From: Chryseobacterium sp. W4I1
GTDB lineage: Bacteria; Bacteroidota; Bacteroidia; Flavobacteriales; Weeksellaceae
Assembly: GCF_030816115.1 (NCBI RefSeq)
Contig: NZ_JAUSXQ010000001.1
Coordinates: forward strand, 4,259,001-4,323,000
Length of the DNA stretch: 64,000 bases
Direction: 5' to 3'
Positions 8,114 through 48,073 of the stretch are shown piece by piece. The translations under genes were made by a program, and so were the position numbers. The notes below the pieces were generated by a model. It did no database searches. It saw nothing but the letters and a program-made list of their open reading frames with translations, and was not told the DNA's origin. Each line of letters opens with the position of its first letter. Positions within the stretch are counted from its first letter, which is position 1.

Positions 8114-8121
8114 TACTTTTG
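8114..8121 (+). promoter_or_regulatory. -7 box TACTTTTG before the KAS III gene
   Basis: TACTTTTG matches TAnnTTTG and has a TTG 16 bases upstream (8095-8097), one base short of the usual spacing. It overlaps an upstream in-frame TTG codon at 8119, which argues that translation starts at the ATG at 8140. Confidence 0.55.
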
Positions 8122-8139
8122 CAAAGAAAAAGAATTTAT

Positions 8140-9114
8140 ATGATAAAAGTTTCCAAAATAGAATATTATTTGCCCGAACAGATTCTTACAAATGAGGATC
8201 TTGAGAAAGAATTTCCTGAGTGGAGCTCCGAGAGAATCCATGAAAAAATAGGCATCAGACAGCGTCATATTTCTTCAGACAGCGAGACTGTACTGGAGCT
8301 TGCCGTAAAATCTTCAGAAAAAATTTTTGAGACTTATGACAGGAATAAAGTAGACTTTGTCCTCTTCTGTACCCAAAGCCCCGATTATTTCCTTCCCACT
8401 ACAGCCTGTATCCTTCAGGACAGATTGGGTCTGAGAAGAAATATAGGAGCAATAGATTTTAATTTGGGATGTTCAGGATTTGTTTATGGACTGGCTTTTG
8501 CTAAAGGATTAATAACAGCAGGTATTGCAAAAAGTATTTTATTGATCACTTCCGAAACTTATACAAAACATATCAACCCCAAAGATAAAGCCAACAGAAG
8601 TATTTTTGGAGATGCATCGGCATCAGTTATCGTAGAAAAAGATGAAAATGCCAAGGATTATCAGTTTTGCCTGGGAACAGACGGAAGCGGTGCTGAAAAC
8701 CTTATTGTGAAAAAAGGCGCTTTCAAAACTAATTTTGAGCTTAATCCTGAAAATGAATTTGATCCAGAGAATCTATATATGAACGGTCCTGAAATTTTTA
8801 ATTTTACCATAGAAAATATCCCGGGACTGGTAAGAGAAACCTTGGAGACAAACCGTTTGACCATGGATGATATTGACCACTTTGTTTTTCACCAGGCCAA
8901 TTCTTTTATGCTGAATTATTTAAGAAAAAAGACCAAAATTCCGGCAGAAAAGTTCTATATTGACATGGAAAATACTGGAAATACGGTTTCAGCAACCATT
9001 CCAATCGCCCTGAAAAATATGCTGGACAAAGGGACGCTGAAAGAAGGAGACCGTGTATTGATAGCCGGTTTTGGAGTAGGATATTCCTGGGGCGCAACTG
9101 TACTGGAAATTTAA
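8140..9114 (+). CDS. 3-oxoacyl-ACP synthase III-like ketosynthase
   Basis: The 324-residue protein has the FabH fold and active site: Cys111 in NLGCSGFVYGLA, His in VFHQANSF and Asn in NTGNTVSATIP, the Cys-His-Asn triad of KAS III enzymes. It would condense an acyl-CoA with malonyl-ACP to a 3-oxoacyl-ACP. An upstream in-frame TTG at 8119 overlaps the -7 box, so I take the ATG at 8140. It is followed by a dedicated carrier protein and a reductase. Together they look like a supply line for a short 3-hydroxyacyl group used on a glycan rather than general fatty-acid synthesis. Confidence 0.9.
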   Translation: MIKVSKIEYYLPEQILTNEDLEKEFPEWSSERIHEKIGIRQRHISSDSETVLELAVKSSEKIFETYDRNKVDFVLFCTQSPDYFLPTTACILQDRLGLRRNIGAIDFNLGCSGFVYGLAFAKGLITAGIAKSILLITSETYTKHINPKDKANRSIFGDASASVIVEKDENAKDYQFCLGTDGSGAENLIVKKGAFKTNFELNPENEFDPENLYMNGPEIFNFTIENIPGLVRETLETNRLTMDDIDHFVFHQANSFMLNYLRKKTKIPAEKFYIDMENTGNTVSATIPIALKNMLDKGTLKEGDRVLIAGFGVGYSWGATVLEI

Positions 9115-9145
9115 AATAGTAATATAAAACATAAATAAAAAAAAT

Positions 9146-9379
9146 ATGAAGACATCCGTTTTTTTAGAGAAATTACAGGAAGAATTAGAAGAAGACCAAA
9201 CGCTGACGCTTGATACAAATTTGAAGGCATTAGAAAGTTATGACTCCATAAGTCTGCTTTCTGTGATTGCATTTGTAGATGAGAATTTCGATAAAAAGAT
9301 CGATACAAAGCATTTTAAAGATGTAGAAACTGTTTCTGATCTTATGAATGTGATAGGCAAAGAAAACTTCGAAGATTAA
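9146..9379 (+). CDS. Acyl carrier protein (first copy)
   Basis: The 77-residue acidic protein has the ACP helix layout and the phosphopantetheine attachment motif as DS at 33-34 in ESYDSISLLSVIAFV, where DSI replaces the DSL of housekeeping ACP. It lies 31 bases after the ketosynthase gene, and its stop overlaps the start of the reductase by one base, so the three form one operon. It would carry the acyl chain made by these neighbours. The canonical fatty-acid ACP is expected elsewhere. Confidence 0.85.
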   Translation: MKTSVFLEKLQEELEEDQTLTLDTNLKALESYDSISLLSVIAFVDENFDKKIDTKHFKDVETVSDLMNVIGKENFED

Positions 9380-10137
9380 TGAATCCGTTTTCTTTAAAAG
9401 ATAAAACAATTCTTATTACAGGCGCTTCTTCCGGTATCGGGAGAAGCTGTTCTGTAGAATGCAGCAGAAGTGGGGCAGATCTTATTCTTGTAGCAAGAAA
9501 TGAGGAGGAACTGCAAAAGACAGTATCTCTGCTTGCTCCCGGTTCCAAAGCTGAAATAATCATCGCTGATATTACCAATGCTGAAAATCTGGAAGAATTG
9601 ATTGCTGAAAAAATGTCCGTTCTGGGGAAAATCTCAGGGTTTATCCATTGTGCAGGGATAGAAAAAACACTTCCGCTTAAAAAGCATACACCCCAGCTTT
9701 ACACTGATATTTTTGCAGTCAATGTCATTTCAGGTTTTGAAATTGCTAAAATTTTATCCCTGAAAAAATACAAAAACGAAACATCCAGTTTTGTCTTCAT
9801 CTCCTCAGTAGCAGGAATGGTGGGTGAAATAGGAAAAGCTGCTTATTCAGCAAGTAAAGGAGCTGTGATTTCAGGCGCTCGTTCTCTGGCCATGGAACTT
9901 TCCAGAAGCGGCGTAAGGGTGAATAGTATCAGCCCGGCAATGGTGAATACCCCAATACTGGAAAAAATGTTTGAAAACATTGGTGAAGCCGCTGCCGAAG
10001 AGATCCTTAAAAAGCATCCGCTTGGAATCGGGCAGCCGGAAGATGTGGCCAATGCCTGTATTTTCCTGCTTTCAGATGCTTCAAAATGGATCACTGGATC
10101 CAATTTAGTCGTAGACGGAGGTTATTCTGCCCACTAA
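9379..10137 (+). CDS. SDR-family 3-oxoacyl-ACP reductase-like protein
   Basis: The 252-residue short-chain dehydrogenase has the NAD(P) motif TGASSGIG (14-21), NAG-like CAG at 91-93 region, catalytic Ser142/143, Tyr156 and Lys160 (YSASK), and a FabG-like end (GSNLVVDGGYS). It should reduce the 3-oxoacyl-ACP made by the upstream ketosynthase to 3-hydroxyacyl-ACP. The start overlaps the ACP stop (TAATG), showing translational coupling. Its stop overlaps the convergent GT4 gene by four bases, leaving no room for a terminator. The substrate is inferred from the operon. Confidence 0.88.
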   Translation: MNPFSLKDKTILITGASSGIGRSCSVECSRSGADLILVARNEEELQKTVSLLAPGSKAEIIIADITNAENLEELIAEKMSVLGKISGFIHCAGIEKTLPLKKHTPQLYTDIFAVNVISGFEIAKILSLKKYKNETSSFVFISSVAGMVGEIGKAAYSASKGAVISGARSLAMELSRSGVRVNSISPAMVNTPILEKMFENIGEAAAEEILKKHPLGIGQPEDVANACIFLLSDASKWITGSNLVVDGGYSAH

Positions 10138-13168: not shown

Positions 13169-14602
13169 ATGCTCTTTAATTCTATTGCCTTTCTCATTTT
13201 TCTGTCTATCATTTTTATTTTATACTGGTGCGTATTTAATAAAAATTATAAGTTTCAGAATATGCTTTTGCTGGCGGCCAGTTTTTATTTCTACGGCTGC
13301 TGGGACTGGCGTTTTCTGTTTCTTCTTATGTTTTCAATCGGGCTGGACTATTTTTCCGGAATTCAGATTGAAAACAGTAAAACCAAAAAGCGGGCTACCT
13401 TCTGGCTCGTTTTAAGCATTGCTATCAATCTCGGCTTTTTAGGCTTCTTTAAATACTATAATTTTTTCATTGAGAACTTTGCTGAATTATTGAAAACATT
13501 TGGGTTTGGAGTCAACATATGGTTGTTAAAAGTGATCTTGCCTGTTGGTATTTCATTCTATACTTTCCATGGCCTTTCTTACGTAATCGATGTTTATAAA
13601 AAAAGAATTCCCGCCGAGAGAAACTATGTGGATTATGCTGTTTTTGTAAGCTACTTCCCGTTATTGGTGGCTGGTCCTATCGAAAGGGCAACTCACCTTC
13701 TTCCCCAGATCCAGCGGAACAGATCATTTAATTACGAGAAGGCCAAGGACGGGATGGCACAGATTCTTTGGGGATTTTTTAAAAAAATGGTGATCGCAGA
13801 TAACTGTGCCCCTATAGTCAATGAAATATTCAATAATTACCATACAGAAAGTGCCAGTAACCTTGTTTTAGGAGCCATCCTTTTTGCTTTCCAGATCTAT
13901 GGAGATTTCTCGGGTTATTCTGATATTGCGCTGGGAACATCCAGATTATTTGGAATTGAGCTTCTGAAAAACTTCTCTTACCCATATTTTTCAAGGGATA
14001 TTGCAGAATTCTGGAGAAGGTGGCATATTTCACTTTCCTCGTGGTTCAGAGATTATCTCTATATACCTTTAGGTGGTAGTAAGGGCGGATTGTGGATGAA
14101 GATCAGGAACACCTTTATCATTTTTCTGGTAAGTGGTTTCTGGCATGGAGCGAACTGGACCTTCATTATCTGGGGTGGATTAAATGCTGTATTTTTTCTT
14201 CCGTTACTCATCGCAGAGAAAAACCGCCATAACCTCGAAGTTGTGGCAATGGGGAAGATCATTCCTTCATTCAGAGAGGTTTTCAGCATTCTGATGACTT
14301 TTGTCCTGACTTGTTTTGCATGGATTTTCTTTCGTGCCGCAAGCGTTTCTGATGCGATGGGATACATTAAAGGAATTTTCAGCGCGACTTTAATTTCATT
14401 TCCTACTGCATTCAGACCTGTTCTGTTTGGACTGATTATTTTCATGCTTGGAATGGAATGGATGAACAGAACGCATGATTACGGACTGAAAATTCAGGAA
14501 AGAAAACCAGCATTTCAGGCTGTTATTTACATTTTAGTCGCCTATCTGATCCTGAATTTTGCTAATTTCGGAAGTAATGAATTTATATATTTCCAGTTTT
14601 AA
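13169..14602 (+). CDS. MBOAT-family O-acyltransferase (AlgI/DltB-like), first copy
   Basis: The 477-residue integral membrane protein has about a dozen hydrophobic segments. The MBOAT signature blocks include VGISFYTFHGLSYVIDVYK, FPLLVAGPIER, QIYGDFSGYSDIALGTSRLFG and EFWRRWHISLSSWFRDYLY. The invariant catalytic His is His326 in SGFWHGANW. Such proteins take an acyl group from a cytoplasmic thioester and pass it across the inner membrane. The next gene starts one base after the stop and encodes a membrane-anchored SGNH-like protein, the usual partner in AlgI/AlgJ and DltB/DltD systems. Confidence 0.94.
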   Translation: MLFNSIAFLIFLSIIFILYWCVFNKNYKFQNMLLLAASFYFYGCWDWRFLFLLMFSIGLDYFSGIQIENSKTKKRATFWLVLSIAINLGFLGFFKYYNFFIENFAELLKTFGFGVNIWLLKVILPVGISFYTFHGLSYVIDVYKKRIPAERNYVDYAVFVSYFPLLVAGPIERATHLLPQIQRNRSFNYEKAKDGMAQILWGFFKKMVIADNCAPIVNEIFNNYHTESASNLVLGAILFAFQIYGDFSGYSDIALGTSRLFGIELLKNFSYPYFSRDIAEFWRRWHISLSSWFRDYLYIPLGGSKGGLWMKIRNTFIIFLVSGFWHGANWTFIIWGGLNAVFFLPLLIAEKNRHNLEVVAMGKIIPSFREVFSILMTFVLTCFAWIFFRAASVSDAMGYIKGIFSATLISFPTAFRPVLFGLIIFMLGMEWMNRTHDYGLKIQERKPAFQAVIYILVAYLILNFANFGSNEFIYFQF

Positions 14603-15568
14603 ATGAAAAGATTTCTTTCCATATTATCTTTGTTTATAGCCATCATGTTTATCATTGGTTTGATAAAGCTTGCTTTAAGCCCGAACAGCAATTATTCTTA
14701 TCCTCTTTTAAACGCAAAACTGGACTATTTAAAAAAGCATCCGGAATATAATCTTTACTTCATTGGCAGCTCAAAAATCAATAATCAGATTGACTGTAAA
14801 TTAATTGATGAAAATATCAACGGTTTAAAATCATACAATTTAGGTGCAAATGCAAGCTTCAACTTAGAAAATTTCCAAACTTTGGAATATGTGCTTGGAA
14901 ATTCTTCTTTCAAGCCCAAATATATCGTTCTTGAACTTCAGGATAAAATCAATATTACCAAGCTGAATGTGAAATCAGAAAGAAGTTTTGGAGCTTTTAA
15001 TTTTGAAAATACCGTTTTTACCAGCCGATTTCAGAAAGAGAACGGTAATTATAAGCAGATTGTGCTCTCCTGGGTTTCATTTGTTTTAAATGTTTTTCAT
15101 TTTAATAAGCATTGTGACGAAAAAGACATCCAGCATAATTATAACCGTTTTGTGGTTGAAGATCAGGGTTTTTCAGCTCTGGAATACAGTGTAGTTCCCA
15201 GAACGGAAAAAAATAAACTAGATGAGGTCATTAAAGACAGGCAGAATCGTTACCATGCAGATCATGCACAGCATACTGTGAATAACGTATTGGCGGAAAA
15301 AATTAATCAGCTTGCAGAAAAATGCGAAAAGAAAAATATACAGCTCATCATGTTTATTCCCGGACCGGCAGAGCCTGATGCAAAAAAACTTCAGGTCTAT
15401 CAAAGCGCATTGAATGTTCCTGTAATCAGTCTTGTCAATCCTGATGAGTATCCGGAATTTTATCTTTACGAAAACCGTTGGGATTACGGGCATTTGAATG
15501 AAAAAGGTTCGAAAATCCTTTCCCTCAAGCTCGTTCCCCTCCTGAATAATATATTAGAAAAAAAATAA
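14603..15568 (+). CDS. Membrane-anchored SGNH/DltD-like partner of the first MBOAT
   Basis: The 321-residue protein has one N-terminal membrane anchor (residues about 4-22) and a periplasmic body. The nucleophile block reads FIGSSKI, with Ser56/Ser57 where GDSL enzymes have GDS. A DxxH pair typical of SGNH enzymes is present near the C-terminus: Asp294 and His297 in WDYGHLN. It directly abuts the MBOAT stop. By analogy with PatB, AlgJ/X and DltD it would place the acyl group exported by the MBOAT onto a glycan in the periplasm. The fold call comes from motifs only. Confidence 0.72.
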   Translation: MKRFLSILSLFIAIMFIIGLIKLALSPNSNYSYPLLNAKLDYLKKHPEYNLYFIGSSKINNQIDCKLIDENINGLKSYNLGANASFNLENFQTLEYVLGNSSFKPKYIVLELQDKINITKLNVKSERSFGAFNFENTVFTSRFQKENGNYKQIVLSWVSFVLNVFHFNKHCDEKDIQHNYNRFVVEDQGFSALEYSVVPRTEKNKLDEVIKDRQNRYHADHAQHTVNNVLAEKINQLAEKCEKKNIQLIMFIPGPAEPDAKKLQVYQSALNVPVISLVNPDEYPEFYLYENRWDYGHLNEKGSKILSLKLVPLLNNILEKK

Positions 15569-16667: not shown

Positions 16668-16675
16668 TATTTTTG
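16668..16675 (+). promoter_or_regulatory. -7 box TATTTTTG before the small ORF and FkbH operon
   Basis: TATTTTTG matches the -7 consensus and begins seven bases after the acyltransferase stop. It would start transcription near 16682, ten bases before the ATG of the 43-codon ORF, making that ORF the first cistron of the FkbH-ACP-MaoC-SDR-MBOAT run. Confidence 0.55.
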
Positions 16676-16691
16676 TATCAAAGCAAACACA

Positions 16692-16823
16692 ATGAAAAAA
16701 AAGAAAAACGTTCCCAATACGTATCAATCATACATTTACAGTCACGATTCCGTAGAGCCGGAGACTTTTAAAAACAACAGAGAGGGACTTACAGAATTGG
16801 GAGCCGGTACATTCATATTTTAA
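16692..16823 (+). CDS. Possible 43-residue peptide heading the FkbH/ACP operon
   Basis: ATG at 16692 to TAA at 16821-16823 encodes 43 residues. The N-terminus is strongly basic (MKKKKN), the middle is polar with Tyr and His, and the end is AGTFIF. There is no membrane segment or signal peptide. It starts 16 bases after a -7 box and ends 15 bases before the FkbH-like gene, the spacing of a first cistron. It could be a small protein partner, a leader peptide or a chance frame. I recognise no family. Confidence 0.45.
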   Translation: MKKKKNVPNTYQSYIYSHDSVEPETFKNNREGLTELGAGTFIF

Positions 16824-16838
16824 TAAAATAAAGAATTC

Positions 16839-18563
16839 ATGTACAAAACGTTTTCAGAACTGAAAAAAGAACTCCGCAAAGACATTCCTCAACTTAAAAA
16901 GATCAGGGTTGCCCTACTGGGTGATACCGCTACACAGTTTCTCAATATTGCTTTGAAGGGAACTGCCCGTAACGAAGGTTTTGAATTTGAGATTTTCGAG
17001 GCAGATTTTGGACAGATTTCACGACAGATTTTAGATCCTTCCTCAGAATATTATGAGTTCAAGGCAGATTATACCATCATTTTTGAATCGTCACACAAGC
17101 TTTTAAGCCAATATTATAAATCTTACAATACGCAGGTTTCTTTTGCTGAAAACAAGATATTCTACATTGAAGACCTTTACCGGAACATTCAGAGCAGAAC
17201 TAAAAGCAGGGTGATCTACTGTAATTTTCCAGTGATTAATAATCAGGTTTTCGGGAATTTTTCCAATAAGGTAGAGTCTTCCTTTGTCTTTCAGCTGAAT
17301 AAACTTAATTATCTGCTGTCAGCGGAAATTGCTATTAAAAATGATAATTTCTTCATTGCAGATCTTCTTTCGATCCAGAATAAATGGGGAAGAGATTTTA
17401 TGTTCTCCCCAAGCATTTATGTCAATACGGAAATGGTGCTTTCACTGGATGCCCTGCCGATCGTAGCTCATCACATCACCGGAATTATCTCTTCTCTGGA
17501 AGGCAAGTTTAAAAAATGCCTGATTTTGGATCTTGATAATACAACCTGGGGTGGGATTATTGGTGATGACGGTCTTGAAAAAATCCAGATAGGAAGTCTT
17601 GGAATAGGGAAAGCATTTACAGAGTTTCAATACTGGGTAAAAGCATTGCAAAAAAGAGGGATAATCCTTGCAATATGCAGTAAAAATGACGAAGATAAAG
17701 CCAAAGAGCCTTTTGAAAAACATCCGGATATGGTCCTTAAGCTGGACGATATTGCTGTTTTCGTGGCCAATTGGGATAATAAAGCAGATAATATCAGGAA
17801 GATCCAGAGCATTCTGAATATCGGATTTGATTCCATGGTATTTCTGGATGATAATCCTTTTGAAAGAAATATTGTTCGTGAAAATCTTCCTGAGGTATGC
17901 GTTCCTGAACTTCCTGAAGATCCTGCAGAATATCTGGAATATTTATATGGCTTAAATCTGTTTGAGTCCGCCAGTTTTTCAGAAAATGACGCAGAAAGAA
18001 CGAAACAATACCAGGTGGAAGCGCAGCGAGCCGTTGATCTGGACAGTTTTACCAACGTGGAAGACTTCCTGAAAAGTATGGCAATGATTTCTGATGTAAA
18101 GCCGTTCGACAGTTTTTCAAAACCCCGGGTTTCCCAACTGACGCAGCGTTCCAATCAGTTTAATCTGAGAACAGTACGGTATTCAGAACAGGATATTGAA
18201 AGCCTGATGAATTCTGAAAAACATTATACCTTTTCTTTCACATTGGAAGATAAATATGGCGATAACGGACTGATCTGTGTGATCGTTCTGGAAAAAGAAA
18301 ATCCGGAAACTCTTTTCATCAACACCTGGCTGATGAGCTGCCGTGTCCTGAAAAGAGGAATGGAAGATTTTACACTGAACACGATCGTGGCAACCGCCAG
18401 AAAAAACGGTTACAAATATGTGGTTGGAGAATATCTTTCCACCGCCAAAAACCAGATGGTAAAAGACCATTATGAAAGACTGGGATTTACAGAACAGGAT
18501 GAAAAATGGATCCTGGACGTAGACCATTACGAATCTAAACAAGTATATATCAACAATAAATAA
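16839..18563 (+). CDS. FkbH-like HAD-IIIC family protein
   Basis: The 574-residue protein has an N-terminal region of about 200 residues and a HAD-IIIC phosphatase/transferase core with LILDLDNTTWGGIIGDDG (Asp231 and Asp233 as motif I), ICSKNDEDKA and FLDDNPFERN. The C-terminal part is GNAT-like (LMSCRVLKRGMEDF, YEKLGF-like YERLGF). Characterised FkbH proteins load a glyceryl unit from 1,3-bisphosphoglycerate onto an acyl carrier protein, and a carrier gene follows 11 bases later. A glyceryl or related C3 starter is therefore the best guess for the acyl group of this operon. Substrate identity is inference. Confidence 0.88.
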   Translation: MYKTFSELKKELRKDIPQLKKIRVALLGDTATQFLNIALKGTARNEGFEFEIFEADFGQISRQILDPSSEYYEFKADYTIIFESSHKLLSQYYKSYNTQVSFAENKIFYIEDLYRNIQSRTKSRVIYCNFPVINNQVFGNFSNKVESSFVFQLNKLNYLLSAEIAIKNDNFFIADLLSIQNKWGRDFMFSPSIYVNTEMVLSLDALPIVAHHITGIISSLEGKFKKCLILDLDNTTWGGIIGDDGLEKIQIGSLGIGKAFTEFQYWVKALQKRGIILAICSKNDEDKAKEPFEKHPDMVLKLDDIAVFVANWDNKADNIRKIQSILNIGFDSMVFLDDNPFERNIVRENLPEVCVPELPEDPAEYLEYLYGLNLFESASFSENDAERTKQYQVEAQRAVDLDSFTNVEDFLKSMAMISDVKPFDSFSKPRVSQLTQRSNQFNLRTVRYSEQDIESLMNSEKHYTFSFTLEDKYGDNGLICVIVLEKENPETLFINTWLMSCRVLKRGMEDFTLNTIVATARKNGYKYVVGEYLSTAKNQMVKDHYERLGFTEQDEKWILDVDHYESKQVYINNK

Positions 18564-18574
18564 ATTACACCTAC

Positions 18575-18811
18575 ATGAACAAAGATGAAATTTTAGCGAA
18601 ACTGACAGGTATTTTCCATGATGAACTGGATAATGATGACATTGTATTAAGTTTTGAAACTACAGCAGAAGATGTAGAAGAGTGGGACTCTCTTTCCCAT
18701 ATTCAGCTGATTGTAGCGGTAGAAAAAGCTTTTGGCGTACGTTTCACTTCGTCAGAGATCCAGAGCTGGAATAATGTTGGAGAAATGATAGACTGTATAC
18801 TTGCGAAATAA
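18575..18811 (+). CDS. Acyl carrier protein (second copy)
   Basis: The 78-residue acidic carrier has a canonical phosphopantetheine site, Asp38-Ser39-Leu40 in EEWDSLSHIQLI. It lies between the FkbH-like loader and a MaoC-like dehydratase, and its stop overlaps the latter's start by one base (TAATG). It differs clearly from the ACP at 9146, so the locus carries two dedicated carriers. It should hold the FkbH-loaded acyl unit during modification and present it to a transferase such as the MBOAT at 19941. Confidence 0.9.
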   Translation: MNKDEILAKLTGIFHDELDNDDIVLSFETTAEDVEEWDSLSHIQLIVAVEKAFGVRFTSSEIQSWNNVGEMIDCILAK

Positions 18812-19206
18812 TGATACTTCAGGAAAACCAGGCTTTTAGGCATCAGTTTAAAGTAGATGAACAGGTTTACAGCGGTTTCATCTCTGTTTTTGAAGATCGG
18901 AATTCTCTGCATACCGATGAGGAATTTGCAAAGAATAAAGGCTTTCGGTCTAAAGTGATGCACGGTAATATTCTGAATGGTTTTCTTTCGTATTTTATCG
19001 GTGAACTGCTTCCTACAGAGGATGTGATGATCCTTTCACAGACAATTAATTTTAAAAATCCGGTGTATCTGGATGATGTTTTAAATTTTGAAGCGGTGGT
19101 GACCGATCAGTCGGAAGCCGTGCGGGTGAATACATTCGCTTTTAAATTCATCAATGCAGATCTTAAAACGGTAGCATCAGGTAAAATCCAAATCAAAGAA
19201 TTCTAG
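18811..19206 (+). CDS. MaoC-like hotdog dehydratase
   Basis: The 131-residue protein fits a single hotdog domain. The hydratase-2 type motif reads FEDRNSLHTDEEFAKNKGF, giving the catalytic pair Asp29 and His34, followed by the typical KVMHGNILNGFLS helix. MaoC proteins hydrate or dehydrate enoyl/3-hydroxyacyl thioesters. It overlaps the ACP stop and the next reductase start by one base each (TAATG and TAGTG), so the three proteins are translationally coupled and probably act on the same ACP-bound chain. Confidence 0.87.
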   Translation: MILQENQAFRHQFKVDEQVYSGFISVFEDRNSLHTDEEFAKNKGFRSKVMHGNILNGFLSYFIGELLPTEDVMILSQTINFKNPVYLDDVLNFEAVVTDQSEAVRVNTFAFKFINADLKTVASGKIQIKEF

Positions 19207-19919
19207 TGAAAAAAGTGGTGTTGACCGGAGGTTCATCCGGAATTGGTAAAGAGATCAATCTTTTTCTTTTGGAAAAGGGTTACGAAGTATTATTTACTTA
19301 TTGTCATTCTGAACAGCCTGCAAAGGAAATAGAAGACAAGTTTCCCGGTGCAAAGGCATTTAAGATTGACTTTACTCTGGAAGGCCAAATGGCTGGTTTT
19401 TTGTCTGAAATAGAAGCTTTTGATCCGGATATTCTGATCAATAATTATTACAGCGGTACATTCATCAACACCTATTTCCATAAAACAGAGGCGGAAAAGA
19501 TCCTTGAAGAGTTTAAGCATAATGTAATGCCGGCTCTTGAGGTGACCCAAAAATGCATTCCTATTTTCAGGAAGAAAAAACTGGGAAGAATTATCAATAT
19601 CCTTTCTTCATCAATGATTTCCCCTGCGATGGGAACTTCCGTTTATAATTCCAATAAAGCTTATCTGCTTCAGATGAGCAAAAGCTGGGCAGTGGAGAAT
19701 GTGAAGTTCGGGATTACATGCAATTCTGTTTCTCCATCTTTTATCCCGACAGATTTTCACAAGAATATGGATGACAGGATGAAAGATATGATCATTTCCG
19801 GATATCCCCTGAAAGATAAGCTGGAAGGTAGTGATGTCGCCAATATCATTGAGCTGTGCATCAACGGTGGAAAACATTTTAACGGAAACCACCTTTTTGT
19901 GGATGCTTCCCACTATTAA
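19206..19919 (+). CDS. SDR-family oxidoreductase
   Basis: The 237-residue short-chain dehydrogenase starts at GTG overlapping the MaoC stop. Cofactor motif TGGSSGIG is at 7-14, Ser134-136 and the catalytic Tyr147-x3-Lys151 (YNSNK) are present, and the end reads NGNHLFVDASHY, like FabG-type enzymes. The second glycine-rich position NNYYSG replaces the usual NNAG. It likely reduces an ACP-bound ketone or oxidises a hydroxyl in the FkbH/ACP/MaoC pathway. The direction is not determinable here. Confidence 0.87.
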   Translation: MKKVVLTGGSSGIGKEINLFLLEKGYEVLFTYCHSEQPAKEIEDKFPGAKAFKIDFTLEGQMAGFLSEIEAFDPDILINNYYSGTFINTYFHKTEAEKILEEFKHNVMPALEVTQKCIPIFRKKKLGRIINILSSSMISPAMGTSVYNSNKAYLLQMSKSWAVENVKFGITCNSVSPSFIPTDFHKNMDDRMKDMIISGYPLKDKLEGSDVANIIELCINGGKHFNGNHLFVDASHY

Positions 19920-19940
19920 TGAGACTTTAAACACAGATCA

Positions 19941-21356
19941 ATGCAGTTTACTTCTATCGCTTTTACCCTTTTTTTTACTTTTGTTTTCGGGCTTTACTGG
20001 TTTATATGCCGAAAGAACCTGAAACTACAAAATATCCTGCTCCTGATTTCCAGCTATGTCTTTTATGGCTTTTGGGACTGGAGATTTCTGGCACTTCTGG
20101 CCGGAAGTTCTGCTATCGCTTATTACCTGGGTCTTAAAATTGGCGGAAGCGAAGGGAAAACTAAAAAAATATACATCAATTTAGGGTTGATCCTGGCGAT
20201 TGGAACCCTTTTTTATTTTAAATATTTCGGATTTTTTATTGACTCATTTGCGAATCTGTTTCATATTAAAAATACACTGACCCTTAATATTATTTTACCT
20301 TTGGGAATCAGTTTTTATACCTTCAGAATCATCAGTTATTTCCTGGATCTGAAAAACAATAAGCTGAAGCCGGAAACAGATGTTCTGGCCTTCTTCAATT
20401 ATATTGCTTTCTTCCCGAGTATGACCTCCGGACCGATTGATAAAGGAAGTTTGCTGCTTCCACAATTGAAAAAAGAAAGAGTTTTTACGGAAGAAATGGC
20501 TGCTGATGCAGCAAGACAGATCCTTTACGGAGCCTTCAAAAAGCTGGTGATTGCCAACAGCATTACACCCATCACACAAAATATTTTTCAGAATTACGAG
20601 ACCCTTTCCGGAAGTACGGTGGCATTGGGTGCCATTCTTTTCCTTTTTGAACTGTATGCAGACTTTTCGGGATATTCTGATATGGCAATAGGATTTGCAA
20701 GACTTCTGGGATTTAAAATTACCAAAAACTTTGCCTTTCCGCTTTTTGCACAGAATATTGCAGAATACTGGCGAAAGTGGCACATATCGCTTACTTCATG
20801 GCTTACTGAGTATGTTTTTACTCCTTTGGTTATTCAGTTCAGGGATCATGGGAAAAGAGGGCTTATCGCCGCTATTATTCTGAATTTTATTTTAATAGGG
20901 GCGTGGCACGGTCCTAGATTTACATTCATCATATTCGGATTGCTTCATGGGATTTATTATATTCCTCTGATCGTAAGGGATAAACTGAACAAGAAGAAAA
21001 AATTCTCAGGGAGTTTCCCTACCTTGAAAGAGCTGGGAAATATACTGTTGACAATGATGATGGTCTGTTTTGCTCTGGTACTTTTTGCCGCACCTGACCT
21101 GAAGGCTGCTTTGGGCATGTATGGAAGAATTTTCAGCTTCTCCCTGTTTTCCATTCCTCAGTTTATCAAGATTAAAATATTGGGATTGATTGGAATTTTA
21201 ATTTTAATCGATTGGATGAATAAAGATCAGGAACACGGGCTTGATATTAAAAGGTTTAATCCATGGATGAGAAGAGGTTTTTATGTTTTTCTGATCTTCA
21301 TGATTATGTATTACGGTGTGTTTTCTAACGGAAGCTTTATCTACGAACAGTTTTAA
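19941..21356 (+). CDS. MBOAT-family O-acyltransferase (AlgI/DltB-like), second copy
   Basis: The 471-residue polytopic membrane protein is a paralogue of the one at 13169. It has PLGISFYTFRIISYFLDL, FPSMTSGPIDKG, ELYADFSGYSDMAIGFARLLG, EYWRKWHISLTSWLTEYVF and the catalytic His323 in GAWHGPRFTF. It lies 21 bases after the SDR gene of the ACP pathway and is followed after one base by an SGNH-type gene. By analogy with DltB, which takes D-alanine from the carrier DltC, it may accept the acyl group from the ACP at 18575 and move it outward. Confidence 0.94.
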   Translation: MQFTSIAFTLFFTFVFGLYWFICRKNLKLQNILLLISSYVFYGFWDWRFLALLAGSSAIAYYLGLKIGGSEGKTKKIYINLGLILAIGTLFYFKYFGFFIDSFANLFHIKNTLTLNIILPLGISFYTFRIISYFLDLKNNKLKPETDVLAFFNYIAFFPSMTSGPIDKGSLLLPQLKKERVFTEEMAADAARQILYGAFKKLVIANSITPITQNIFQNYETLSGSTVALGAILFLFELYADFSGYSDMAIGFARLLGFKITKNFAFPLFAQNIAEYWRKWHISLTSWLTEYVFTPLVIQFRDHGKRGLIAAIILNFILIGAWHGPRFTFIIFGLLHGIYYIPLIVRDKLNKKKKFSGSFPTLKELGNILLTMMMVCFALVLFAAPDLKAALGMYGRIFSFSLFSIPQFIKIKILGLIGILILIDWMNKDQEHGLDIKRFNPWMRRGFYVFLIFMIMYYGVFSNGSFIYEQF

Positions 21357-21357
21357 T

Positions 21358-22281
21358 ATGAAAAAATTTTTATTTAAAATATCGTTTTATATTATTGGAA
21401 TCCTTGCCGTTATGCTATTCCTTGGAACCTATGCAGATGGCAATACAGACGATAATTACAGGCACTTTGCTGTAGAAAAACCTCAAAATATCATTTTAGG
21501 AGATTCCAGAAGTGTGCAGGGAGTCGTTCCGGAAGTTTTGAAAGAAAAACTGTCTGTTCCTTTTGATAATTTTTCGCTAAATATTGTACAGTCTCCTTAC
21601 GGGCAAATCTATTTAAAAGCATTGAAAAGAAAACTGGATCCGGAGACCCAAAATGGAACTTTCATCCTGGCCGTAAGTCCCTGGAATCTGGCACTGAACA
21701 ATATTGTAAAGAGGACAGAAGACTTTCCGGAAGAAAATTCTCCGTTTAAGAATATGTATTTTTATAATATGTCGCCCAATTATGAATACCTGCTCAAAAA
21801 TTTTGATAAAAGCTGGTTTAGGATATATCTTGACAGGGAAGCGGTGGGGAGATCCAATACCTATCTTCATAAAGACGGTTGGATGGAAGTGAATATAAAT
21901 ATGAGTAAAGATTCAGTAGCTGCCAGAACTGCTATAAAAACAGAGTATTATAAGTTACTGCTGGGAAATTTTTCTCTTTCTAAAGAACGTCTGAAGGCAC
22001 TCAACGAAATGATAGATTATCTGAAACCTAAAGGGAAGATATACCTCGTACGGATTCCTGTTTCAGAAAATATCATAGCTTTGGAGAACAAAAAATTCCC
22101 GGAATTCAGCAGAATGATGCAAAACCTTTCAAAGGAAAAGAACATAAAATTCTATGATTTTTCAGGCCACGCCAATGATTTTACCTATATAGACGGAAAC
22201 CATATGTACAAAGAGTCCGGAAAAGTTTTTACGGCACAAATAGCGGATTCAGTGAAGGCAGACCAGAGAAAATTAAAATAA
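21358..22281 (+). CDS. Membrane-anchored SGNH/DltD-like partner of the second MBOAT
   Basis: I take the ATG at 21358, one base after the MBOAT stop; an in-frame GTG/ATG-like extension to 21316 would lie inside the MBOAT gene. The 307-residue product has one N-terminal membrane anchor (about 3-24), then a periplasmic body with a true GDS block (IILGDSRS, Ser50) and a C-terminal DxxH pair (Asp279, His282 in YIDGNHMY). It would complete a carrier-MBOAT-SGNH relay like DltC-DltB-DltD. Its last nine bases overlap the convergent GT2 gene. Confidence 0.78.
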   Translation: MKKFLFKISFYIIGILAVMLFLGTYADGNTDDNYRHFAVEKPQNIILGDSRSVQGVVPEVLKEKLSVPFDNFSLNIVQSPYGQIYLKALKRKLDPETQNGTFILAVSPWNLALNNIVKRTEDFPEENSPFKNMYFYNMSPNYEYLLKNFDKSWFRIYLDREAVGRSNTYLHKDGWMEVNINMSKDSVAARTAIKTEYYKLLLGNFSLSKERLKALNEMIDYLKPKGKIYLVRIPVSENIIALENKKFPEFSRMMQNLSKEKNIKFYDFSGHANDFTYIDGNHMYKESGKVFTAQIADSVKADQRKLK

Positions 22282-24432: not shown

Positions 24433-25369
24433 TCACGAATGGGTATAAGTGAACCGGTATTGTGTTTTTAAAATTTTGGGGTTTTTAAGAATAGCTGTAA
24501 AAAGAGTTATCATTTTAGAAAAACCTTTTTTTTGAGATAGCTCAAAAGCCTTTTTCTTAAGATAAATATGTTCTGAAATATCCCGATCCAGTCGGTTTTC
24601 TTGTGACCATTGATACAGGGAATTCCAAAAAAGAAACTGTCTTTGATTATACTGCGGAGAATACTTAACGATTTTTGTAATTCTGTTATCATCATGAATC
24701 CCTCTCATAGCTACAGGTTGATCTATAATTCCGGATTTTAAATGACAGTGAAAAGCCAGTTTAATGATAAAATCAGAATCCTGATGTACACGGAGTTCTT
24801 CGTTAAACTTCAAGTTGTATTTCTCAAGAGCCGAATTTCTTATGGTAAGCGCATCCAAAGTGAAAAAACTGCCGAATGCAGTTGGTGTTTTTCCTAAAAG
24901 GCCCCTGAATACTTCATGTCCTTCTGCCGGATAATTAACGGTAAGGAGATGATTGTCAATTAATATTAGATAAAAAATCCTCCCGGCCTTTTTCTGTCAG
25001 AAATTCAGTGCCGATCGCATTAAAAACACCTTCTATATCGGAATTCTTAAAATGCTCTTTTTCTGCATCAAATCTATTAGATAGAAAATAATCGTCAGCA
25101 TCCAGGAATGCAATGAAATCTCCGGAAGCTTTTTCTATTCCAAGGTTTCTGCTGGCTCCGGCACCATGATTTTTTTTATCAGAATGTTGAAAAAGCTGAA
25201 CCCGTTCATGCTTTTGGGCAAGTTCCAGACATACCGTAAGCGCGTGGTCAGGTGATCCGTCTTCAATCAGGATTACTTCATCCACTTCATCAAACTGAAG
25301 CACAGAATTTACAGCCTTTGTAACATATTTTTCTGCATTGTATACGGGAATGATCACTGATATCTTCAT
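24433..25369 (-). pseudogene. GT2-family glycosyltransferase disrupted by a 1-base insertion (tandem paralogue 3)
   Basis: From ATG 25369 the frame encodes the GT2 N-terminus (SVIIPVYNAEKYV, FLDADDYFLSNRF) and stops at TGA 24956 after residue 137. The next frame continues without a break (LLTVNYPAEGHEVFRGLLG, then HQDSDFIIKLAFHCHLKSG) to 24433 and matches the intact neighbour at 25372. The span is 937 bases, one more than 312 codons. Removing one A near 24959-24966 (coding strand TTAATT) restores a 311-residue protein against 312 in the paralogue. It is either a recent pseudogene or a sequence error. Confidence 0.85.
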
Positions 25370-46646: not shown

Positions 46647-47964
46647 CTATTTATTTTCTATGGTTTTTCTTCCTATGCTTTTATAGTGGAATCCATTCTG
46701 CTGCGGAATTTCCAGTGGATACATATTTCTTCCATCAAAAATGACCTTATTCTTCATTTTTCTGGACATCAGTTCAAAGTTAGGATTTTTAAATTCTGGC
46801 CATTCTGTAGCAATAAATAAAGCATCTGCATCTTCTAGGGCATCATACATTCCTTTTGCATACTGTATTTTGTCTCCCAGAAGTTTTTGTACGTTATTTT
46901 CTGCCACTGCATCATAAGCCACAATCTGTGCGCCTTTTTCCAATAAAAGATCAATATTGTCCAAGGAAGATGCTTCCCGGATGTCATCTGTATTCGCTTT
47001 AAAAGCAAGACCCCACATGGCGATTTTCTTTCCTTTGATATCACCACCGAAATATTTCTCGATTTCTGATACTAAAATCACTTTTTGAGTTGTATTTACT
47101 CTTTCTGTAGCTTCAAGGATCTGGAAATTAAAATCTTCCTGTATGCCCGATTTTATAAGAGCTTTTACATCCTTTGGAAAACAGCTTCCTCCATATCCGA
47201 TTCCTGGAAATAAAAACCGGTGACCGATTCTATCATCGCTTCCCATCCCAAGTCTTACTTTATCTACATCTGCCCCTACTTTCTCACAGTAATTGGCAAT
47301 CTCATTCATGAATGTGATTTTAACAGCCAGGAATGAATTGGCAGCATATTTCGTAAGTTCGGATGATTTTTCATCCATAAAGATGATAGGAATCCCGGTA
47401 TTCGTAAATGGCTGATAAATTTGAGCCATGATATTTTTTGCCTTTTCAGAACTTGCTCCCTACAACAACTCTTGACGGATTCATTGAGTCTTCCACAGCA
47501 AAGCCTTCTCTTAAAAACTCAGGGTTGGAAACCACATCAAAAGGGAGGTTTGTTTTAGAAGCAATTACTTCTCTTACTTTATCTGCTGTTCCTACGGGAA
47601 CTGTGCTTTTATTGACTACCACTTTATATTCAGTCATCATTTCCCCAATATTATTGGCAACCTGAATGACGTACGAAAGATCTGCAGAACCATCTTCCCC
47701 GGGAGGAGTAGGCAGTGCCAGATAGACAACCTCACTTTTGTCTAAAGCTTCTTTTAGATTGGTGGTGAAAAATAATCTTTCGGATTGTATGTTTCTAAGA
47801 AACATTTCTTCAAGGTTCGGCTCATAGATGGGAACAATGCCGTTTTTCAAACCTTCTACTTTCTTTTCATCAATATCAACACAGTATACTGAATTGCCAA
47901 GTTCTGCTAGGGTAGTGCCTGTAACCAGCCCTACATAACCTGTTCCTACAATTGTTATATTCAA
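46647..47964 (-). pseudogene. ugd: UDP-glucose 6-dehydrogenase disrupted by a 1-base insertion
   Basis: The N-terminal frame gives the NAD motif NITIVGTGYVGLVTGTTLAELG and VNKSTVPVGT, and stops at TGA 47446 after RVVVGSKF. The next frame resumes SSEKAKNIMAQIYQPF and carries the catalytic Cys loop GIGYGGSCFPKD through to 46647. Removing one A of coding-strand AGCAAGT (47453-47454) restores VVVGSSSEKAK and 438 residues, the normal length; the span is 1318 bases, one over 439 codons. I start at TTG 47964 because a -7 box lies between it and the GTG at 48012. Intact, it would oxidise UDP-glucose to UDP-glucuronate. Confidence 0.87.
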
Positions 47965-47988
47965 AATGTCTGTTTTTAAATTTAAAGA

Positions 47989-47996
47989 CAAAAATA
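47989..47996 (-). promoter_or_regulatory. -7 box TATTTTTG before ugd
   Basis: TATTTTTG on the minus strand lies 25 bases before the TTG at 47964. No TTG is present at standard spacing. Its position downstream of the GTG at 48012 argues for the shorter Ugd start (NITIVGTGYVG). Confidence 0.45.
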
Positions 47997-48073
47997 ATAA
48001 AAATACCTTCACCCGCTTCTTTAATTTACTTTAATGAAAATTTTATCTTATTTATCTGATAACGAAGTAGGTT

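Follow-up and report, generated by a model that had tools for sequence, protein, structure and literature searches.

The DNA analysed here (the window) comprises 64,000 nucleotides (nt) of Chryseobacterium sp. W4I1 (contig NZ_JAUSXQ010000001.1, positions 4,259,001 to 4,323,000), and carries at 16839-22281 a tightly packed plus-strand cassette of six genes, encoding an FkbH protein, an acyl carrier protein (ACP), a MaoC dehydratase, a short-chain dehydrogenase/reductase (SDR), an MBOAT and an SGNH protein. An earlier note on this DNA had described seven closely packed plus-strand open reading frames (ORFs) at this place, a 43-codon ORF preceding the six genes, and had compared them with the Gram-positive Dlt system. 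All seven ORFs were recovered when the spacing was re-read from the sequence, and the catalytic residues named there for the ACP (Ser39), MaoC (Asp29/His34), MBOAT (His323) and SGNH protein (Ser50/Asp279/His282) were confirmed by alignments. The six genes are as follows.

16839..18563, plus strand: FkbH protein with an N-terminal domain, a HAD-IIIC domain (D231, D233) and a C-terminal part with Cys501 (PF21211, TIGR01686)
18575..18811, plus strand: stand-alone ACP, phosphopantetheine Ser39 (PF00550, 32.6 bits)
18811..19206, plus strand: MaoC hot-dog dehydratase, Asp29/His34 (PF01575)
19206..19919, plus strand: FabG-like SDR reductase, Tyr147/Lys151 (PF00106)
19941..21356, plus strand: MBOAT with His281/His323, a DltB-like long HC loop (about residues 287-305) and a C-terminal FIYEQF with Tyr468 (PF03062)
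21358..22281, plus strand: membrane-anchored SGNH acyltransferase, Ser50/Asp279/His282 (alignment of 30 proteins, AlphaFold model)

The 43-codon ORF lies 15 nt before FkbH and FkbH 11 nt before the ACP; the ACP and MaoC genes, like those of MaoC and SDR, overlap by 1 nt, while 21 nt separate SDR from MBOAT and 1 nt MBOAT from SGNH.

The FkbH protein scored above cut-off with both FkbH_N (PF21211, 234 bits) and the FkbH domain (TIGR01686, 305 bits), contains the HAD DxDxT motif expected of a loader and matched Protein Data Bank (PDB) entry 3slr (protein BF1531) at 503 bits. Across 51 non-redundant FkbH loci (29 with MaoC and SDR and 22 others; individual loci carry L numbers below), D231 and D233 were present in 51/51 FkbH proteins and Cys501 in 50/51. 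Ser39 was retained in 42/42 aligned ACPs, the MaoC Asp...His pair was present with Asp29 in 30/31 and His34 in 31/31 sequences, and both Tyr147 and Lys151 were found in 29/29 SDRs; the four PDB matches of MaoC included the (R)-hydratases 1iq6, 5cpg and 3ir3. The catalytic roles of the MaoC and SDR residues, and the role of the FkbH cysteine, are presumed here.

The MBOAT and SGNH proteins constitute a pair with an MBOAT domain bearing the invariant His, a C-terminal FxYxxF and an SGNH partner with Ser/Asp/His. His281, His323 and Tyr468 were invariant in 60/60 aligned MBOATs, and the AlphaFold model of the cassette MBOAT (pLDDT 90.5) displayed an unbroken helix at 282-299 and had DltB as its best PDB match. 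In DltB, residues Met302, Val305, Ile306 and Met309 of helix HC contact the carrier DltC, as given in PMC11035591; the cassette MBOAT aligned gap-free across 302-309 with V297/I298 at V305/I306, suggesting that the carrier-docking helix is present with two of the four contact residues kept. The other MBOAT of the window (at 13169) has a shorter PLGGS loop instead of this long DltB form, and the loop type, as read from the sequence, argues for ACP over acyl-CoA as the donor of the cassette MBOAT. For the SGNH protein, Ser50 and His282 were found in 30/30 aligned partners, and 90% or more of these have Asp279; no Pfam or NCBIfam model matched it at E 0.01, and its AlphaFold model (pLDDT 83.7) had gonococcal PatB as the best PDB match (E 5.6e-4; TM 0.39 by query, 0.52 by target), so that the model indicates an SGNH fold, less certainly than the MBOAT fold. 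According to PMC12148441, DltX and PatA carry the acyl group on the Tyr of a C-terminal FxYxxF and pass it to an SGNH protein. Since the cassette MBOAT has an FxYxxF tail of its own, which the earlier note had passed over, no DltX would be needed, and the system appears to unite two features, a dock for the carrier as in DltB and a shuttle that is part of the MBOAT as in PatA.

In its logic the cassette therefore resembles Dlt: a carrier protein would feed an MBOAT whose fold is nearest DltB and whose HC loop is long, with an FxYxxF tyrosine shuttle and an SGNH-type outer transferase. It differs from Dlt in having FkbH and no DltA adenylating ligase, in the additional MaoC and SDR, in the FxYxxF carried by the MBOAT itself without a DltX, and in its place at a Gram-negative glycan locus. 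The ACP, still a phosphopantetheine carrier, reached 16.3 bits with the DltC model NF003464 (cut-off 68), the MBOAT 167.6 bits with the DltB equivalog TIGR04091 (cut-off 375), and the SGNH protein, as said above, gave no family match that could identify it as DltD. Thus the features of DltA, DltB, DltC, DltD and DltX were all wanting and membership of the Dlt family proper had to be given up, whereas the earlier note's proposal of a Dlt-like acylation, in which a carrier feeds an MBOAT-SGNH pair and FkbH acts as loader, gained support from the long DltB form of the carrier-binding loop. The cassette is a real and conserved, probably carrier-fed acylation line that functions like Dlt outside the Dlt family.

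The neighbourhood search suggested in the earlier note recovered the FkbH-ACP-MaoC-SDR-MBOAT-SGNH set in Bacteroidota. A scan of named genomes yielded 27 loci, and the gene order was kept in 13/13 of those from Chryseobacterium/Kaistella, with one additional gene (8447-9772, 441 residues, no Pfam match) between FkbH and ACP in L025. The same gene families occurred at further loci of other Bacteroidota and, rearranged, in metagenome-assembled genomes of the Clostridia (Lachnospiraceae and Clostridium). A same-strand MBOAT was found within 6.5 kb at 25/29 FkbH loci with MaoC and SDR versus 4/22 other FkbH loci (p 1.8e-6), and outside Chryseobacterium/Kaistella at 11/15 versus 3/21 (p 5e-4). Because the order is kept across species and the MBOAT accompanies 25/29 versus 4/22 loci, the cassette is more than a chance assembly. 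The four FkbH-MaoC-SDR loci without an MBOAT were L030, which stops at a contig end, and L035, L037 and L038, where glycosyltransferase family 2 (GT2) genes, an AT3 gene and a GNAT gene come next, respectively. From the phylum sample, with 22 FkbH above cut-off other than that of the source genome, 20 loci were taken, of which 3 had an MBOAT (L076; L077, by its length on the same contig as L026; and L083); therefore, FkbH alone is not tied to MBOAT, and FkbH together with MaoC and SDR is. Relatives of the window MaoC were detected in 8/99 related genomes, 7 of them among 60 same-genus genomes (own included), a patchy distribution within the genus that may be likened to that of variable surface-antigen genes. 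In the source genome itself FkbH was matched once and MBOAT twice, both MBOATs lying within the window.

The relation between loop type and carrier adjacency, defined as a carrier domain within 1250 nt of the MBOAT, was followed across MBOATs. The loop prediction had been written down before 60 genomes were drawn, which supplied 33 MBOATs (own excluded), and in this separate sample PLGG(N/S) was missing in 5/5 carrier-adjacent MBOATs versus 3/28 others (Fisher p 2e-4, kinship ignored). Over all 74 MBOATs it was missing in 30/33 ACP-adjacent versus 10/41 others, counts that are inflated by related rows. Not counted in this set were MBOAT ORFs below 350 residues, near-copies and, among the loci, the short duplicates L001-L009, L044-L063, L071, L072 and L093-L123. 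A tree was made from 68 of these 74 MBOATs, those of 440-530 residues, with the loop columns taken out of the alignment, and on it the loop label has to change 6 times; this tree was read with the ACP label as counted and also with a second, hand-made one (L033, L034 and L068 as ACP, L026 at 2920 as none). Among the five carrier-adjacent rows of the separate sample, four (L145, L147, L149, L150) have an AMP-ligase-like protein, an ACP and a long-loop MBOAT in succession, the first being profiled as fatty acyl-AMP ligase-like in L145 and L147 and judged by look in L149 and L150; in the remaining row, L155, the MBOAT is short and divergent, and the carrier domain lies inside a 607-residue protein.

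The explanation that we favour is a carrier-fed acylation line that converts glyceryl to lactyl for an exported surface glycan. As judged from its family, FkbH would use 1,3-bisphosphoglycerate to charge the ACP with glyceryl, MaoC would remove the C3 hydroxyl as water and turn glyceryl-ACP into enol-pyruvyl-, that is, pyruvyl-ACP, and the SDR would reduce this to lactyl-ACP. The MBOAT would then receive the ACP at its long cytoplasmic HC loop and move the acyl group onto Tyr468, in its FIYEQF tail at the far side of the membrane; from this tail the anchored SGNH protein would accept the group on Ser50 and place it as an ester on a glycan hydroxyl. The glyceryl-derived cargo of the earlier note is upheld as a reading in this scheme, to which the relay via the MBOAT's own tyrosine tail and the glyceryl-to-lactyl task of MaoC and SDR are added as predictions. 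The architecture of a carrier-fed MBOAT-SGNH acylation line we regard as highly probable; that glyceryl is the group loaded onto the ACP appears nearly as probable, and that the ACP is the acyl donor to the cassette MBOAT is likely as well, if a shade less so. Lactyl as the group finally delivered, read from the gene set, stands evenly poised, and the explanation as a whole is given a slightly better than even chance. A glycan acceptor is plausible since the cassette sits amid genes of the surface-glycan type. The surroundings contain many glycosyltransferase-like ORFs, an ABC transporter ATPase, an FdtA-like isomerase, a DegT aminotransferase and hexapeptide transferases, and look like a surface glycan locus.

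Several observations weigh against this explanation. Two of the four DltB contacts are changed in the cassette MBOAT (T294 at M302, R301 at M309), and the NCBIfam DltB score barely separates it (168 bits) from the second MBOAT of the window (151 bits), hence this score was dropped as a sign of ACP use. The loop test was not significant when descent was allowed for (about 2-3 concordant versus 0-1 discordant independent pairs, median p 0.5-0.6), and it is weakened as statistical proof, the raw counts being strong but the rows related. A PLGG loop occurs in three ACP-adjacent MBOATs, one of which (L026 at 2920) adjoins the ACP of the next unit, another (L064) has its ACP fused to a hexapeptide acyltransferase, and the third (L069) is accompanied by an altered MaoC and no SDR; conversely, 10/41 MBOATs with no ACP within 1250 nt also lack PLGG(N/S), and three of these ten (L033, L034, L068) have an ACP farther away within the same gene set. 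FkbH-ACP-MaoC-SDR also precedes GT2 genes (L035), AT3 (L037) and GNAT (L038), and at L064:7075-7956 an ACP fused to a hexapeptide acyltransferase lies within an FkbH-MaoC-SDR set; an MBOAT is thus not the necessary outlet for the acyl-ACP. The window also has a KASIII-ACP-SDR set, 7.7 kb before the cassette. In the open-licence PMC literature searched, no paper was found that shows a lactyl product of FkbH with a dehydratase and a reductase, for which the lactyl starter of bryostatin would be the precedent.

What is carried could be glyceryl itself or another three-carbon derivative, the same line being at work and MaoC and SDR doing other chemistry. FkbH-ACP alone is proposed to make glyceryl-ACP, with 1,3-bisphosphoglycerate as the source, in tetronate and methoxymalonate pathways (PMC7489565), and L076 and L083 possess FkbH-ACP-MBOAT-SGNH without MaoC and SDR. 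These two loci, with no match to the window MaoC in the L076 genome, speak for the favoured glyceryl-to-lactyl scheme as well. The catalytic residues of MaoC and SDR are, however, kept in 30/31 and 29/29 sequences and both genes stand between ACP and MBOAT in 14/14 Chryseobacterium/Kaistella loci, hence the two enzymes very likely act on the carried group; moreover, L069, the only uncut locus with MaoC but no SDR, has its MaoC Asp29 replaced by Ala, and such a joint loss is expected if MaoC and SDR act in series. We consider this alternative unlikely. Fused MaoC and SDR domains occur in a 481-residue protein of L084, and this fusion was set aside as support for in-series action, as the locus has KASIII and its product may be longer; in both L082 and L084, FkbH-ACP adjoins KASIII. 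Methyltransferases lie between FkbH and ACP in L036 and L069, from which O-methylglyceryl types of cargo may also exist.

Alternatively, a ketosynthase, either the KASIII at 8119-9114 or a housekeeping FabF, might extend the chain on the ACP to a longer hydroxyacyl cargo, MaoC and SDR then catalysing the usual steps of fatty-acid type. Window positions 8119-10137 hold a second acyl-ACP set of KASIII (8119-9114), ACP (9146-9379) and a FabG-like SDR; in a count that covered both strands, KASIII was found within 8 kb at 9/29 FkbH-MaoC-SDR loci, all nine belonging to the 14 of Chryseobacterium/Kaistella; and for Flavobacterium psychrophilum it has been proposed that a 3,5-dihydroxyhexanoyl group is made by two ketoacyl-ACP synthases together with an ACP and a ketoacyl reductase (PMC6519341). 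Yet KASIII was absent from the other five of the 14 (L024, L025, L026, L028 and L039, with flanks of 6.7-11.9 kb on each side) and from 15/15 other loci, where some flanks were short (L030, L037, L065). No ketosynthase lies inside the cassette, a polyketide synthase-type ketosynthase was not seen in the flanks of the 29 loci, some of them short, the FabF type not being searched for genome-wide, and the upstream KASIII set has an ACP and SDR of its own. With no ketosynthase nearby at most loci, MaoC and SDR therefore have the C3 unit alone to act on, and we hold a longer cargo to be unlikely, marginally more so than the preceding alternative. A very unlikely alternative has the acyl-ACP spent in the cytoplasm, where a sugar nucleotide or a lipid-linked intermediate would receive the group, and takes the MBOAT-SGNH pair for an ordinary acetyl-CoA acetyltransferase that lies nearby by chance; the FkbH-ACP-MaoC-SDR sets with GNAT (L038) or the ACP-hexapeptide acyltransferase fusion (L064) and the hexapeptide transferases of the window agree with it, but the MBOAT of L064 has a short PLGG loop and that of the cassette a DltB-like one, and the cassette itself contains neither GNAT nor hexapeptide gene and only 21 nt between SDR and MBOAT.

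The favoured glyceryl-to-lactyl line shares single traits with several known systems. With the PatA/PatB and AlgI-type systems it has in common the MBOAT-SGNH pair and the MBOAT C-terminal FxYxxF (PMC12148441), and with PatA/PatB a nearest SGNH model in PatB, but it additionally includes an ACP, a loader and tailoring enzymes. The cassette loop also departs from the PLGG(N/S) form, which would be that of the PatA/AlgI class. FkbH with a stand-alone ACP recalls tetronate and methoxymalonyl pathways, where PMC7489565 likewise proposes 1,3-bisphosphoglycerate as the source; there, glyceryl-ACP is oxidised, methylated or condensed for antibiotics, whereas in the cassette it would meet MaoC and SDR next and probably end at a membrane transferase. 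The wfpC-G genes for the F. psychrophilum O-polysaccharide are alike in that an acyl-ACP is proposed to be made within a Flavobacteriales surface glycan locus, and differ in a ketosynthase-based C6 group proposed to go onto a sugar nucleotide, which is nearer the window set at 8119-10137 (PMC6519341). The units of L145, L147, L149 and L150 share the ACP immediately before a long-loop MBOAT and an FIYFQF tail; their loader is fatty acyl-AMP ligase-like, and those stretches gave no FkbH or MaoC match. Coming from other genomes of the phylum sample, they would be a further carrier-fed arrangement of Dlt-like kind. The complete FkbH-ACP-MaoC-SDR-MBOAT-SGNH set was not found described in the titles and abstract beginnings of the open-licence PMC papers that the searches listed, where the matches for FkbH together with MBOAT concern, on the same reading, cyanobacterial peptides.

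More tentatively, and with somewhat less than an even chance of being right, a modular class of carrier-fed MBOAT-SGNH systems may exist beyond Gram-positive Dlt, in which an ACP would be charged by one of several swappable loaders (DltA, fatty acyl-AMP ligase-like or FkbH) with the help of tailoring enzymes (MaoC-SDR or a methyltransferase) and would dock on an MBOAT that has a long loop and its own Tyr shuttle; the window version would O-lactylate a Bacteroidota surface glycan from 1,3-bisphosphoglycerate, and the loop form would predict an ACP or CoA donor. If true, carrier feeding would occur in a further widespread line that relies on another loader, a surface glycan would be linked directly to a glycolytic intermediate, glyceryl and lactyl esters would be predicted on Bacteroidota glycans, and a sequence mark in the MBOAT would reveal the kind of donor.

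Variation in the MBOATs and their partners was seen at two further loci. At L026:5319-7958 an additional ACP-MBOAT-SGNH unit stands right before the full cassette, making three MBOATs at that locus. At L076:4118-9417 a protein 62% identical to the window SGNH follows a PLGGS-type MBOAT, while FkbH-ACP precedes an MBOAT of a different subtype; the outer transferase seems to have been kept while the donor-side MBOAT was exchanged.

Immediately upstream of the cassette lie a second MBOAT-SGNH pair and an AT3 protein, followed by a candidate promoter element and the 43-codon ORF.

13169..14602, plus strand: second MBOAT, short PLGGS loop, tail FIYFQF, unit lacking an ACP (internal comparison)
14603..15568, plus strand: SGNH-like protein paired with the second MBOAT, sharing 11% identity with the 21358-22281 protein (alignment)
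16668..16675, plus strand: TATTTTTG, fits the Bacteroidota -7 consensus TAnnTTTG, candidate own promoter of the cassette (sequence match)
16692..16823, plus strand: 43-codon ORF, weakly conserved, no FxYxxF (ORF reading, locus comparison)

The second MBOAT is probably of the acetyl-CoA type. The octamer TATTTTTG recurs 163-175 nt upstream of FkbH in 8/14 loci (the window, L017-L022 and L024), and by the -7 consensus, which we take to be TAnnTTTG, it possibly provides the cassette with its own promoter. The 43-codon ORF ends in GTFIF without the FxYxxF shuttle motif, which rules it out as a DltX. Counterparts of 40-44 codons were found directly before FkbH in 7/14 Chryseobacterium/Kaistella loci, window included, while L023 has a shorter one of 36 codons, and two compared counterparts were 38-42% identical to it where FkbH was about 90%; the small peptide was thus discarded as a component of the system, contrary to the earlier note. 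With its length kept and its sequence variable, it may instead serve as a leader ORF within the 5′ untranslated region.

Two genes elsewhere in the window are interrupted. On the minus strand at 46647-48012, two ORFs share what is a UDP-sugar dehydrogenase gene, the N-terminal domain being apart from the central and C-terminal ones, and at 24433-25369, also on the minus strand, a glycosyltransferase 2 gene is seemingly broken into two ORFs, with a 311-residue ORF at the matching place in L017 and L019.

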